Source: Nitrospinia bacterium
GTDB lineage: Bacteria > Nitrospinota > Nitrospinia > Nitrospinales > JAJDAT01
Assembly: GCA_029261715.1 (NCBI GenBank)
Contig: JAJDAT010000016.1
Coordinates: forward strand, 186,001 to 250,000
Length of the DNA: 64,000 nt
Direction of reading: 5' to 3'
Position 1 is the first letter of the stretch. Every line of letters begins with the position of its first letter. The notes below the pieces were generated by a model. The model was not told the origin of the DNA. It made no database searches and saw nothing but the letters and a program-made list of their open reading frames with translations. Positions 10,518 to 16,905 of the stretch are shown piece by piece. Position numbers and translations under genes: made by a program.

Positions 10518-10552
10518 AAAAAAAAAGACAAGCCCACGAAAGGCTTGTCTTT
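10518..10552 (-). terminator. Rho-independent terminator of the small-protein genes
   Basis: On the minus strand an 11-bp perfect stem (arms AAAGACAAGCC and GGCTTGTCTTT, seven-base loop) is followed by a run of eight or more T. It closes the minus-strand transcript carrying the small membrane-protein genes at 10588 and 10805. Confidence 0.9.
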
Positions 10553-10587: not shown

Positions 10588-10755
10588 TTAGTGACCGCCA
10601 GCTACTTCTCCGCCTGCACTCCATAAATAGAAGAAATCCAAGCCTTGTACTTCCATCAAGCCAACGTTAATCATAAAGTAATATCCCGCCATTCCGATTA
10701 AAGCGATAATAAAATGCATAATGGACTTTGGCGTAACAAATTTTTTCTGCTCCAT
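10588..10755 (-). CDS. Small membrane protein (55 aa)
   Basis: The start is the second of two adjacent ATGs, because AGGGGG lies five bases before it. The peptide reads MEQKKFVTPKSIMHF, then one hydrophobic helix (about residues 15-33), then a short tail ending GGEVAGGH. It is followed within 36 bases by a strong terminator, which supports a real gene. I do not recognise the family. Its setting beside another one-helix peptide and a DUF420 protein suggests an accessory subunit of a respiratory complex, which is inference only. Confidence 0.7.
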   Translation of the reverse strand: MEQKKFVTPKSIMHFIIALIGMAGYYFMINVGLMEVQGLDFFYLWSAGGEVAGGH

Positions 10756-10804
10756 CATTTCCCCCTAATAAACCTAAAATTATTTTTTCTTGAAAATTAT
10801 AAAA

Positions 10805-10903
10805 TTACCGCCACACGGAAGCAAACCAGTAAAAGAACCAGAGACAAAAAACACATGTCCCGATATAAATCCAAGGTCCAGCTTTTTCCTTAAAGTTGTC
10901 CAT
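10805..10903 (-). CDS. Very small single-helix membrane protein (32 aa)
   Basis: The frame reads MDNFKEKAGPWIY and then a strongly hydrophobic, Trp/Phe-rich helix ending in ASVWR and a stop. GAGGGG lies nine bases before the ATG. It is 50 bases upstream of the 55-aa gene on the same strand and probably shares its transcript. A short charged head before one aromatic helix resembles the tiny subunits of haem-copper and cbb3-type oxidases. No family assignment is made. Confidence 0.55.
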   Translation of the reverse strand: MDNFKEKAGPWIYIGTCVFCLWFFYWFASVWR

Positions 10904-10950
10904 TCTAAAAGGCCCCTCTAAAAATTAATATAAGGTTAATTTATTTGTTC

Positions 10951-10963
10951 TTGACAGAGTCAA
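10951..10963. promoter_or_regulatory. TTGAC-AGA-GTCAA palindrome between divergent small genes
   Basis: A perfect 5-bp inverted repeat with a three-base centre lies between the minus-strand 32-aa gene (start 10903) and the plus-strand 35-aa gene (start 11015). Each arm contains a TTGAC, so it could be two overlapping -35 boxes firing in opposite directions, or an operator. Confidence 0.35.
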
Positions 10964-11014
10964 ATTTTGAATGTTAATTTCAAACCCTCTTTAACACCAC
11001 GTACTGAGGAACAT

Positions 11015-11122
11015 ATGGCAAGCAAAGACGGGAAAATTTTCGATACTATAGTATATATTGGCCTTGGCGTCAATTGCTTAACAGCGATTTATTTATTATT
11101 GACTTACTTTGAAGTAATATAG
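11015..11122 (+). CDS. Very small single-helix membrane protein (35 aa)
   Basis: An ATG with GAGGA four bases upstream opens 35 codons: MASKDGKIFDT followed by one hydrophobic helix to the end. It is the only plus-strand gene in a minus-strand block, between the DUF420 gene and the 32-aa gene. The ribosome-binding site, charged head and clean helix support it; its size is the main doubt. Confidence 0.45.
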   Translation: MASKDGKIFDTIVYIGLGVNCLTAIYLLLTYFEVI

Positions 11123-11243
11123 AGGGAGCATTAAACCACAGCCATTGAAGCAGGTCAAGCCATAAATAGCCAAAATTAAAGTATTTATGGCGCTGCTGGC
11201 TAAAAAAAAATGGAACTTATCGGGAGGAAAAACTACAAACTTC

Positions 11244-11960
11244 CTAAACCGGCTTAGCTGGATATATTACGTAGAGCATTAAATATGTTAGAGTGCTTGT
11301 TACCAAAATGAGGATATAAACTACCATCGTTCCTCTACCAAGCACTCGATGCCTTTTAGCTCCATCAGGCAACCATTTTTCAATAGCTTTCTCTAGACTT
11401 ATAACTAAAGCAATAGTCCCAAAAATCAACGCCCAGGCTAAGCTACTTTGCCAGGAAGCATGACGAACGAAGGTTAAAATAATTTGATTTAGGCCCCAGG
11501 CGCCTAGTAGTATCAACATTACTTTTTTAAATGTCGTAGAGCGAACCTTTAGATCCCCTTCCGTTAAAACATACTTCCCTTCTATTTTTTTTGAGCTCCT
11601 AAACCCTTGAATAACCATATAGAAAGCCAAAATAAGGCCCATGGTTACTAAAAATAAATGCACACTCAAAATAGGGACAAAAACCCCGTTGTAAACTTCT
11701 TCTGGACCGCCAAACCCTTCTTTTCCTTCCAGCGCTAATACCCCTAATTGCCGGAAAAAATAATAAACAGTAAAATAAATAACCATGGAAACCATAGATA
11801 TGAACACCAAATTGTGGTGTTTGGTCCCCTCACCTTTTTTGGCCAGTACCCAAGAAGTTGTGAACATAGCGGTGAAAACAACGGCAAGCAAATAGCTCAA
11901 ATCAGCGCCAACCGTTCCCGCTGTGCCAAAAAAACCGGCAGTTCCTAAGAGTTCTTTCAT
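11244..11960 (-). CDS. DUF420-like polytopic membrane protein (CtaM-like)
   Basis: The 238-aa protein has about six hydrophobic helices. Histidines sit in KKGEGTKHHN after helix 1, in ILSVHLFLV, in FVRHASW and in GAKRHRVLGRGT. That layout is the one I associate with DUF420/CtaM, proteins needed to assemble or activate aa3-type oxidases in some bacteria, though this one is longer than usual. AGGAG precedes the ATG. No oxidase subunit gene is in the window, but four tiny membrane proteins flank it. The function as an oxidase assembly factor is inference. Confidence 0.6.
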   Translation of the reverse strand: MKELLGTAGFFGTAGTVGADLSYLLAVVFTAMFTTSWVLAKKGEGTKHHNLVFISMVSMVIYFTVYYFFRQLGVLALEGKEGFGGPEEVYNGVFVPILSVHLFLVTMGLILAFYMVIQGFRSSKKIEGKYVLTEGDLKVRSTTFKKVMLILLGAWGLNQIILTFVRHASWQSSLAWALIFGTIALVISLEKAIEKWLPDGAKRHRVLGRGTMVVYILILVTSTLTYLMLYVIYPAKPV

Positions 11961-12026
11961 AGGCTCCTAAACGAAAATCAGCGAATTAAAAATCGAAAAA
12001 AAATTCCTGAATCCCTTCTTATTTAT

Positions 12027-12206
12027 TTAACTATTTTCCCCACCCAGCAAAAAAGTGCCTAAATAAAATTCAATAATGCCTAATAGAGACCAATATAGTA
12101 GAGGTTCCATCTTCATCTGCGAGAAAAACATAAAAACAACTGCAGTGATTGTCATTAGACCTACGAATTGCAAAGCCTTTCCAAAAAAATATCTTATTGG
12201 GCTCAT
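12027..12206 (-). CDS. Small two-helix membrane protein (59 aa)
   Basis: The frame begins three bases after the stop of the 194-aa gene, which indicates translational coupling rather than an independent ribosome-binding site. It reads MSPIRYFFGKALQF, a first helix, FSQMKMEPLLYW, then a second helix ending LLGGENS. Two clean helices joined by a short charged loop support a real protein. The family is not recognised. With the neighbouring DUF420 gene downstream it may belong to a membrane-complex operon. Confidence 0.6.
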   Translation of the reverse strand: MSPIRYFFGKALQFVGLMTITAVVFMFFSQMKMEPLLYWSLLGIIEFYLGTFLLGGENS

Positions 12207-12209
12207 GAA

Positions 12210-12794
12210 TTAATTGCTTAATGATGACTTTACTTGTTTATTGGCGTTAATCAGAGTCGCAATATTTTCCTTACCTAATTCTTGCATAGTTTCTCGAACC
12301 ATCATCAATACCAGTTTACCTTGTAGGGTTAAAATTCCAGGAACATCTGGTATTGATTGATCATATTCCCCTTTTTTAGAGGCTTCAAATCGCTTTATTA
12401 GTTCGTTATCGTCAAAAAGATCATTTAACGAATATTGATAAATAAGTTTTACGTAATCTCTTTCCTTTTCCGTGTCTTTTTTGGAATCCCAGACAATGTT
12501 TTCCATTTCAACCAAAAGAGGTTTAGATTTTTCTTTATTAAGGACCTTTTTAATGGAATCGAAATATTTTTTCATTTCTTTATTTCCATTTAATTCATCT
12601 TCTGGAATTTTGGAACTTATTTCAAACTCAATATTTTCTTCTTTTAAAACAGGCCTTCCAATTTCATAAGTGATGTTATTGTGATGAAATCTTCGCCCTT
12701 TTTTAGGCTTATATTTATCTTGCATCTCTTTAACCAAAAGATTAAAGCCTTCGCTTGCGAATTGACTGAAAAGAATTCCCTTAAGATTTGCCAT
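12210..12794 (-). CDS. Hypothetical cytoplasmic protein (194 aa)
   Basis: I do not recognise this family. GGTAGGAG lies seven bases before the ATG. The protein begins MANLKGILFSQFASEGFNLL, is rich in Lys and Glu, has no signal or membrane segment and looks mostly helical, with a hydrophobic segment near residues 155-170. It heads a probable operon with the coupled 59-aa membrane protein and the DUF420 protein. Confidence 0.75.
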   Translation of the reverse strand: MANLKGILFSQFASEGFNLLVKEMQDKYKPKKGRRFHHNNITYEIGRPVLKEENIEFEISSKIPEDELNGNKEMKKYFDSIKKVLNKEKSKPLLVEMENIVWDSKKDTEKERDYVKLIYQYSLNDLFDDNELIKRFEASKKGEYDQSIPDVPGILTLQGKLVLMMVRETMQELGKENIATLINANKQVKSSLSN

Positions 12795-13028: not shown

Positions 13029-13793
13029 TTACAAACTATTTGGCAAACTCTCATTCACAAAACCGCTCGTTCCGTTACTCTGGTATACATACCGCAACTT
13101 TATACATCCTGTTTCATCATTTGCACAGTAAAAACTTAAAAACTGAATTTTGGCAAACTTTCCTTTTGCGGACTTCAAAGCATAAATATTGTTTCTAGCG
13201 GTCAATTTATGAGTCAAAAAATTATATTTATACCAGCTATCTAATTCTTTATTAAGCGATTCAGTTTTTCGCCTGGAATCCTCAACATAATCATCTCTTT
13301 GAACTTTAAGAACATCATGAAATGGCATTTCTCCCAGGTTTAGCGCAGCTCCTTTACCAAACTTATTGGTTGCCCCTCCATTTGTAATAACTTTTCCTCT
13401 ACGAAATGCAAGATCCCATTCAAGAGAAGTAGGATCTTTTATATCCACAGTCTTCCCTTGAGCTAAACTAAAATAAACCCACTTAGTTTCTGAAGATGCG
13501 TTTATCGTAACATACTTAGGCATTAGCAAGTTTTTTGGAAGTCTAATAGTACGAACTTTAGGTTTTTCCTCTTTTTTTTCAGCCACATCGCCAGTTTTTG
13601 GTAAATTTACGCTGGGAGAATTAAAGAAATCATTAACTTCAATTGCTTTTAAGGGTACCCAAAACATACCAACCAAAAAAATTGAAGCTGTAAGACTTAA
13701 CAAAAAACGCTTCTTCCACTTTTTTTGGTTTTCTAGGGCGATTTCTTCGTTAAAACTGGAGGTGTGAGGATGTGAACCGGACGATTCTGACAT
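13029..13793 (-). CDS. Membrane-anchored HmuY-like protein
   Basis: The protein has 254 aa. A cytoplasmic N-terminus is followed by one hydrophobic helix (about 29-48) and a linker. A beta-rich domain follows with the HmuY signatures WVYFSLAQGK, then WDLAFRRGKV and TNGGATN, ending in SFYCANDETGCIKLRYVY. HmuY proteins are surface haem binders or lectin-like proteins; the haem-ligand His pair of Porphyromonas HmuY cannot be assigned here. It lies nine bases after the LpoB/CsgG-like gene, so the two are an operon, without the outer-membrane receptor usual for haem uptake. Confidence 0.7.
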   Translation of the reverse strand: MSESSGSHPHTSSFNEEIALENQKKWKKRFLLSLTASIFLVGMFWVPLKAIEVNDFFNSPSVNLPKTGDVAEKKEEKPKVRTIRLPKNLLMPKYVTINASSETKWVYFSLAQGKTVDIKDPTSLEWDLAFRRGKVITNGGATNKFGKGAALNLGEMPFHDVLKVQRDDYVEDSRRKTESLNKELDSWYKYNFLTHKLTARNNIYALKSAKGKFAKIQFLSFYCANDETGCIKLRYVYQSNGTSGFVNESLPNSL

Positions 13794-14922: not shown

Positions 14923-16905
14923 ATGAACGGAATCCCCAATCGAGCTATAAATTGGATCAGTCCAGAAATGCAACCCTGGGTGTTAGGGGGCTTAACTCTG
15001 CTATCTATAGCTTTTTTTACAAATAAAATATGGTCTAAAATTAAGGTTTTACGCTTGGCTCAACCCGAAAATAGGTTTGAGAATCCTGGAAAACGTTTTT
15101 TACATATGCTTTGGGTTGCTTTCGCACAAGCAAAACTATTTAAAAGAGCTCAATCTGGGTGGATGCATGCTTTTATTTTTTGGGGCTTTTGCGTACTTTT
15201 ATTGAGAGCCGTACAATTTTTTATTATTGGTTTCTTCCCCACCACCCAATTTCTACAGCTTGGACCTCTATGGTCCACATATTTATTATTAAAAGATTTT
15301 TTTATCGCTTTAATTTTTTTAGCGGTTGGTTTTGCAATTTTTAGACGGACGGTTTTAAAACCCAATCGATTGACTTTATCAATTGAAGGACTAATGATTT
15401 TAGGGCTTATCGCACTTATTTTAATTAGCGATATTGTTTTCGACGCCGCCTTTTTAAACGAAAACCCAAAAGCTTTTTCATGGGAAGCTCCCCTTGGCGC
15501 CTCGTTATATCTTGTATTCTCTGGTTTTTTAGAAAATACAACTTGGACTGCTCTACATAATTTATCTTATTGGGTTCATGTTTCCAGCATTTTAATTTTT
15601 ATAAATATCCTACCAAATTCAAAACATCTTCATGTAATTGCGTCATTTCCAAACGTATTCTTTGCAAATATCGCCAAAAACGGGAAACAAATTCATAGAA
15701 TCGATTTTGAGGACGAATCTAAAGAAGAATTTGGAGTAGTTCGTATTCAAGATTTTTCCTGGAAGCGATTGCTAGATTTTTACACTTGTACAGAGTGCGG
15801 TCGGTGCGATCTGGTATGTCCAGCCTTAAATAGCTCCAAACCCCTTTCCCCAAAAGAGTTCACTGTAGATTTAAGAAATCATCTAAATGGAATAAGTTCT
15901 TCTCTTATTGATGGTAACTCAGAGGCAATTCCTGCATTGGCAGGCAACGCCATCTTAGACGAAACAATTTGGTCCTGCACTACTTGTGGAGCTTGTGAAG
16001 AAGAATGTCCCGTTGAAATTGAATATGTAAATAAAATGATAGATCTCAGAAGAGGTTTGGTTTTATCAGAAGACCGGTTTCCTCAAGAATTTAACAACGC
16101 TTTTAAGTCGCTTGAAGTTAATAGTAATCCCTGGGGATTTGGGCAAGATAGTAGAGCCGATTGGGCGGAGGGGTTAGACGTTAAAATTTGGGATAAAAAT
16201 AATCCATCAGAATATCTTTATTTCGTAGGGTGTAACGGGTCGTTCGATAGTCGCGGTAAAAAGATTTCAACTTCAGTTGTAAAACTTTTAAAACAAGCGG
16301 AAGTCGACTTTTCAATTCTTGGTAATTGTGAAAAATGCACAGGCGATCCTGCACGAAGAGCCGGGAACGAATATTTATTTGAAATGTTGGCTACAGATAA
16401 TGCCGAATTATTAAAAGAATCCGGCGTAACAAAAATTGTGACTCATTGCCCTCATTGCTTTAACTCTTTAAAAAATGAATACCCGGATTTTGACGCTCAC
16501 TTTGAAGTGCTTCATCATTCAGAACTCTTAGAAAGCCTCATAAACAATGGTAAAGTTGAAGCTGCTTCAAGGACCCAAGAAACCGTTGTATTTCATGATT
16601 CATGTTATTTAGGTCGGCATAACAATATTTACGATCCTCCAAGAAAAGTATCAAACGACCTAAAAGAAGTCGAAAACAGTCGAGAAAGAGGGACTTGTTG
16701 CGGAGCAGGAGGAGCTCGATTTCTATTAGAAGAAAAAACCGGAACAAGAATGAGTCACAATAGAATTGATGAACTTATGGAATCAAACCCCGATACCATT
16801 GCCGTTTCATGCCCCTTTTGCGTTTTGATGATTGAAGATGGACTGAAAGCCAAAAAGTTGGACACTCAGGTAAAAGTTAAAGATATTTCTGAAATCCTAA
16901 CTTAA
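14923..16905 (+). CDS. Membrane HdrD-like iron-sulfur oxidoreductase (ETF:quinone oxidoreductase type)
   Basis: The first 260 residues are a NarI-like membrane domain of five to six helices with candidate haem histidines. Two 4Fe-4S motifs follow: CTECGRCDLVC near 288 and CTTCGACEEEC near 351. Two CCG domains come next, the first with GNCEKCTGDPARR near 469 and HCPHC near 508, the second with CCGAGGARF near 592 and SCPFC near 625. This fused HdrE-HdrD layout is that of proteins that pass electrons from electron-transfer flavoprotein to membrane quinone (EMO/EtfD). No etfAB genes are in the window. It is transcribed divergently from the LpoB-like gene. Confidence 0.85.
   Translation: MNGIPNRAINWISPEMQPWVLGGLTLLSIAFFTNKIWSKIKVLRLAQPENRFENPGKRFLHMLWVAFAQAKLFKRAQSGWMHAFIFWGFCVLLLRAVQFFIIGFFPTTQFLQLGPLWSTYLLLKDFFIALIFLAVGFAIFRRTVLKPNRLTLSIEGLMILGLIALILISDIVFDAAFLNENPKAFSWEAPLGASLYLVFSGFLENTTWTALHNLSYWVHVSSILIFINILPNSKHLHVIASFPNVFFANIAKNGKQIHRIDFEDESKEEFGVVRIQDFSWKRLLDFYTCTECGRCDLVCPALNSSKPLSPKEFTVDLRNHLNGISSSLIDGNSEAIPALAGNAILDETIWSCTTCGACEEECPVEIEYVNKMIDLRRGLVLSEDRFPQEFNNAFKSLEVNSNPWGFGQDSRADWAEGLDVKIWDKNNPSEYLYFVGCNGSFDSRGKKISTSVVKLLKQAEVDFSILGNCEKCTGDPARRAGNEYLFEMLATDNAELLKESGVTKIVTHCPHCFNSLKNEYPDFDAHFEVLHHSELLESLINNGKVEAASRTQETVVFHDSCYLGRHNNIYDPPRKVSNDLKEVENSRERGTCCGAGGARFLLEEKTGTRMSHNRIDELMESNPDTIAVSCPFCVLMIEDGLKAKKLDTQVKVKDISEILT

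Follow-up and report, generated by a model that had tools for sequence, protein, structure and literature searches.

The stretch of DNA analysed here (64,000 nucleotides, hereafter the window) comes from the 5.3 Mb genome of a nitrite-oxidising bacterium, and nearly all close relatives of this genome are Nitrospinaceae/Nitrospinota MAGs. An initial annotation had described four tiny ORFs around a DUF420 gene, and all four are present. Two of them lie one after the other on the minus strand, namely s55 (10588-10755, 55 aa) and s32 (10805-10903, 32 aa). An intergenic region of 111 bp (10904-11014) separates s32 from the divergent s35 (11015-11122, plus strand, 35 aa), which is on the strand opposite to the three other small ORFs and runs towards the 3' end of the DUF420 gene (11244-11960, minus strand, 238 aa). 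The fourth, s59 (12027-12206, minus strand, 59 aa, two hydrophobic stretches), starts 3 nt beyond the stop codon of a gene for a conserved 194 aa protein of unknown family (12210-12794, minus strand), an arrangement pointing to translational coupling. Good Shine-Dalgarno sequences precede s55, s32 and s35; the ribosome-binding sites and the coupling are as initially described. Just past s55 is a strong intrinsic terminator (10524-10552, minus strand; 12-pair stem followed by a T tract, fold z-score -4.2), and s32-s55 thus looks like one short transcription unit. A sigma-70 scan returned a number of sites no higher than chance.

Hydropathy maxima of 1.73-1.94 predict one transmembrane helix in each of s32, s35 and s55. 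Only five ORFs of 28-62 aa in the window, counting either strand, combine a Shine-Dalgarno sequence with an ATG and a hydrophobic 19-mer; s55, s32 and s35 make up three of them, which is above chance. A WFFYWFA motif is conserved in s32, while s55 has a lysine-rich N-terminus, a conserved LMxxQGLDxFY motif and a glycine-rich tail usually ending in His. In one genus (loci L016, L034 and L036), a cysteine-containing tail (KYCYLGCFWPF) replaces DFFYLW in s55. Searches of Pfam, NCBIfam and PDB found no relative of the four small proteins, s32, s35 and s55 having no match in Pfam up to an E value of 10 or in NCBIfam up to an E value of 1; these three proteins are thus unannotated and missed by current family databases. 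A weak Ribophorin_II_C match of s59 was below the family cut-off and was taken as chance. The 194 aa protein has no match in Pfam or NCBIfam either.

Conservation was evaluated by comparing up to 60 relatives from the same order as the window (Nitrospinota, Nitrospinales-like). Identity across the order is 80-94% for s35, 62-81% for s32, 54-73% for s59, 57-69% for the DUF420 protein and 49-63% for the 194 aa protein; for s55 it is mostly 57-83%, falling to 39-43% in one genus with a divergent s55. Median pairwise dN/dS values are 0.074 (s35), 0.091 (s32), 0.089 (s59), 0.103 (s55) and 0.101 (DUF420), and values of about 0.07-0.10 show that each small ORF is coding. The order, strand and start codons of the four ORFs are kept across the order, with full synteny, DUF420 included, in practically all relatives whose contigs are long enough. 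The four small ORFs are therefore real genes, and two expectations attached to them, a gene order shared with relatives and purifying dN/dS, are borne out. The shared gene order, identical in nearly all long loci of the order, reads FeS protein, 334 aa protein, HmuY-like protein, 194 aa protein, s59, DUF420, s35 (opposite strand), s32, s55, phosphatase and ABC ATPase. As the flanking genes are also syntenic, synteny by itself is no proof of joint function. Among these flanking genes, the HmuY-like membrane-anchored protein (13029-13793, minus strand; PF14064, 75 bits), whose place is kept in the order, is a candidate haem-handling neighbour, and a membrane Fe-S/CCG-domain protein of 660 aa, HdrD/GlpC-like (14923-16905, plus strand), is a conserved neighbour of the cluster in the order.

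The DUF420 protein, encoded by a single-copy gene in the window's genome, matches PF04238 at 57.6 bits (cut-off 30.5) and is present in 58 of the 61 order genomes. It has six long predicted helices and three histidines (His48, His101 and His204) that are invariant in 38 sequences from three phyla. Foldseek comparison of its AlphaFold2 model, a good one (pLDDT 82.6), with solved folds gave no significant match, and CtaA was not among the matches listed. The three invariant histidines and the six-helix model would fit a cofactor role, although they do not show it. Genomes were scanned with a DUF420 alignment and 80 loci were kept, in which close relatives come from Nitrospinota, Nitrospirota and Scalindua, besides a few apparently mislabelled bins; the distribution tracks nitrite oxidisers and their relatives. 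One contig labelled Alphaproteobacteria (OFTM99; L069) carries a Nitrospinaceae DUF420 locus and is probably a binning error. TIGR03479, tried as a marker of nitrite oxidoreductase (NXR), was too broad to separate nitrite-oxidising bacteria (NOB) from non-NOB.

Downstream of DUF420 in Nitrospirales come genes for a PCP_red protein and for a membrane protein of 355 aa, and then a bd-like oxidase gene, which is present in all 28 loci whose downstream sequence is long enough. The 1.1 kb gap between the PCP_red gene and this first bd-like gene was considered as a possible site for small ORFs, but what fills it is the gene for the 355 aa membrane protein. Next to DUF420 there is a protein with a PCP_red domain both in Nitrospirales (e.g., L110:6722-7204) and in Scalindua (L108:55-543), both copies having a Cys-rich N-terminus. 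Nitrospinota family f9 and genomes G008 and G062 have bd-like oxidases but no DUF420, which is thus not needed for every bd-like member.

Two long bd-like genes are found in the window's genome, on contigs C30 and C38, and 72 of 77 Nitrospinota carry such genes. As the small genes are not beside these oxidase genes, which are on other contigs, and are likewise apart from the oxidase in Nitrospinales, the link to the oxidase rests on other lineages. A genome-wide search with an s35 profile found matches in five Nitrospirota genomes (E values from 1e-6 to 4e-9), four of them just beyond the Nitrospirales DUF420 loci. In these four Nitrospirales genomes, s35 diverges from s32-s55 on the opposite strand, and a bd-like oxidase gene and cytochrome c genes come after s55. 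At locus L158, for example, the divergent gap between s32 and s35 is about 105 bp (versus 111 bp in the window) and the oxidase gene begins about 90 bp after s55. The fifth genome (G083) keeps the s35/s32/s55 trio, beside which 8 kb of sequence is masked. Profiles built from the Nitrospirales peptides only were then run against the window, searched as 2497 six-frame segments, and their best matches were s55 (E = 6.7e-7), s32 (E = 1.9e-9) and s35 (E = 7.2e-10), with 26-36 bits versus 7.8-13.5 bits for the next matches and at most 11.1 bits for shuffled controls.

The oxidase that follows s55 is the second copy of the Nitrospirales cluster, DUF420 lying upstream of the other. At 59% identity, it is the nearest relative of the C30 oxidase of the window's genome, and identity between the C30 oxidase and the other Nitrospirales copy is 47%. 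Moreover, three cytochrome c genes beside the C30 oxidase are 36-45% identical to the Nitrospirales ones, in the same order. In Nitrospirales, the two bd-like genes have two tandem membrane-anchored formylglycine-enzyme-like (SUMF1-type) proteins encoded between them (L159:13090-15058). In Nitrospirota, the search for s32 and s55 covered the sequence up to about 20 kb from the cluster. Troglogloeales have counterparts of both that precede the bd-like gene, in the order s32-s55-bd-like. A genome from another Nitrospinota family (G061) likewise has such counterparts at the head of a cytochrome c/bd-like cluster, in which a gene for a two-haem cytochrome c protein comes first after the small genes; taken alone, the s32-like match is a weak one (E = 0.003). 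Linkage to a bd-like oxidase is thus found across lineages, and s35, s32 and s55 track one bd-like oxidase across phyla. Not every bd-like oxidase is accompanied by the whole set, as family f9 lacks DUF420 and no small homologues were seen near the Scalindua bd-like genes.

From the description in PMC6606698, we infer that the counterpart of the tracked oxidase is bd-like_3, which in N. moscoviensis lies in a cluster with alt-NxrC_2, and not the NIDE0901-like putative terminal oxidase; the complex may consequently reduce O2 or serve reverse electron flow. NOB and anammox bacteria share a conserved bd-like/cytochrome c/alt-NxrC cluster, which is highly transcribed (PMC6606698, PMC8026999). It corresponds to the OR-N CydAA'/alt-NxrC cluster of Nitrospira, Nitrospina and anammox bacteria, and the bd-like and three cytochrome c genes of the window's genome are orthologous to its Nitrospirales version. 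Small subunits are not mentioned for this cluster in the open-licence papers that we found, which could miss an earlier report of the peptides. With the exception of N. gracilis, the Nitrospinae strains studied in published work are reported to have bd-like (OR-N, CydAA') oxidases and no canonical haem-copper oxidases (PMC8026999, PMC10839748), the absence of which leaves the route of O2 reduction open in most marine Nitrospinota nitrite oxidisers (PMC8026999). In that respiratory chain, the complex considered here is the least understood; the locus supplies three conserved peptides as markers for it, together with one candidate maturation factor, and makes its composition testable by proteomics.

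On genomic evidence, s35, s32 and s55 are probably single-helix accessory components of the OR-N bd-like/cytochrome c complex, with DUF420 as a maturation factor. The three small proteins would pack against the multi-helix bd-like subunit of the nitrite oxidisers' complex and would stabilise either this subunit or the haem site in it, which is what CydX, CydS and CydH do in canonical bd oxidases. The analogy with these three proteins (PMC8951039) makes structural subunits the most likely role of s35, s32 and s55. DUF420 most likely acts in the maturation of a bd-like complex of this kind, and the chemical role that we infer for it would be haem or metal insertion, or late assembly, in the membrane; it would be comparable to CtaM of aa3 oxidases, although the enzyme that it serves has no haem A. 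The small genes and DUF420 would have left the oxidase operon in Nitrospinales and would now form a separate conserved unit. A more specific proposal has about an even chance of being correct, namely that a dedicated trio of one-helix subunits, unrelated in detectable sequence to CydX/CydH, and a DUF420 maturation factor serve an OR-N bd-like oxidase that is linked to cytochrome c and has its own biogenesis route, with no need of haem A.

Known systems offer partial parallels. CydX/AppX, CydS and CydH/CydY are, like the small proteins here, single-helix proteins (about 30-40 aa) encoded beside or near a CydA-type oxidase, and one-helix subunits of the CydX type are a requirement of canonical bd oxidases in proteobacteria (PMC8951039). 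In Nitrospirales and Troglogloeales, small genes are found beside the CydA-type gene, while in the window's genome they are unlinked to it, as is CydH, encoded outside the cyd operon (PMC8951039). However, no sequence similarity between s32/s35/s55 and CydX/CydS/CydH was detectable, family models included, and the partner of CydX-type proteins is a canonical bd oxidase, whereas the partner here is an OR-N bd-like oxidase, reported without quinol-site residues and linked to cytochromes c. As for DUF420, CtaM/YozB belongs to the same Pfam family and is also a multi-helix membrane protein, but four or five segments are reported for CtaM (PMC9145763), as compared to the six long helices predicted here. 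Furthermore, CtaM serves aa3 oxidases, whereas the DUF420 lineage studied here is without haem A synthase or aa3 oxidase, its linkage in Nitrospirales being to PCP_red and bd-like genes instead. The present results indicate that DUF420 is not confined to haem A oxidases. Against a role of DUF420 with a bd-like enzyme stands the finding that ctaM and bd-type genes have no tendency to occur together (Hammer et al. 2016, PMC4958251).

The fourth small protein does not follow the trio. In three other Nitrospinota genera, belonging to family f9 and devoid of DUF420, s59 homologues are located between rimO-like and cutA-like genes (L164:9704-9907, L165:8132-8314 and L166:4421-4624), away from DUF420 and from the oxidase. 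Outside the order, s59 is thus not tied to the oxidase, and the initial idea that all the small proteins form one oxidase unit is supported for s35, s32 and s55, linked to the bd-like oxidase, and not for s59. It is quite possible, at a little under an even chance, that s59, and perhaps DUF420, acts in an unrelated envelope function and that both are mere neighbours of three oxidase-linked proteins. The f9 locations favour this explanation, while the invariant order of the 194 aa gene, s59 and DUF420 in the window's order argues against it, as does the bd-like linkage that DUF420 has of its own in Nitrospirales.

An unlikely alternative to the accessory-subunit reading is that DUF420 and the small proteins act only transiently, in the assembly of the bd-like complex, and are absent from its mature form. 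Their separation from the oxidase in Nitrospinales would agree with such a role, as would their position next to DUF420, whose relative CtaM is an assembly factor (PMC9145763). However, s32-s55 directly precede structural genes in Nitrospirales, and one-helix proteins of such size are subunits in solved bd complexes (PMC8951039). Membership in the nitrite oxidoreductase membrane anchor or in an NXR-oxidase supercomplex, with the bd-like oxidase merely encoded in the same region, is less probable still. An alternative NxrC has been reported in the bd-like cluster (PMC6606698), the distribution of DUF420 follows nitrite oxidisers and their relatives, and the two-haem cytochrome c gene of G061 comes directly after the small genes, but in Nitrospirales and Troglogloeales the small genes are directly ahead of the bd-like gene itself.

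Finally, a haem-copper (aa3-type) terminal oxidase as the enzyme assembled by this locus, an idea resting on the requirement of Firmicutes aa3 oxidases for DUF420/CtaM (PMC4958251), is rejected as very improbable, since haem A synthase (CtaA) was found in none of the 64 order genomes searched, a full-length haem-copper oxidase subunit I (COX1) was found in only 5 of 61 order genomes (versus 58 for DUF420) and not in the window's genome, and the near-complete genome G008 has COX1 and no DUF420 match. DUF420 does not, therefore, co-occur here with haem A synthase and an aa3-type oxidase as CtaM would. Haem-copper oxidases also have single-helix small subunits, similar to the proteins described here, but their partner is the very enzyme of which no full-length copy was found in this genome. 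Of the initial proposal of a unit serving a terminal oxidase encoded elsewhere, the link to an oxidase elsewhere in the genome is thus retained and its haem-copper identity is abandoned. Part of a canonical cydA-like gene, interrupted by two in-frame stops, is also present in the window's genome (G000:C25:670450-670764, locus L060) and is possibly a pseudogene.
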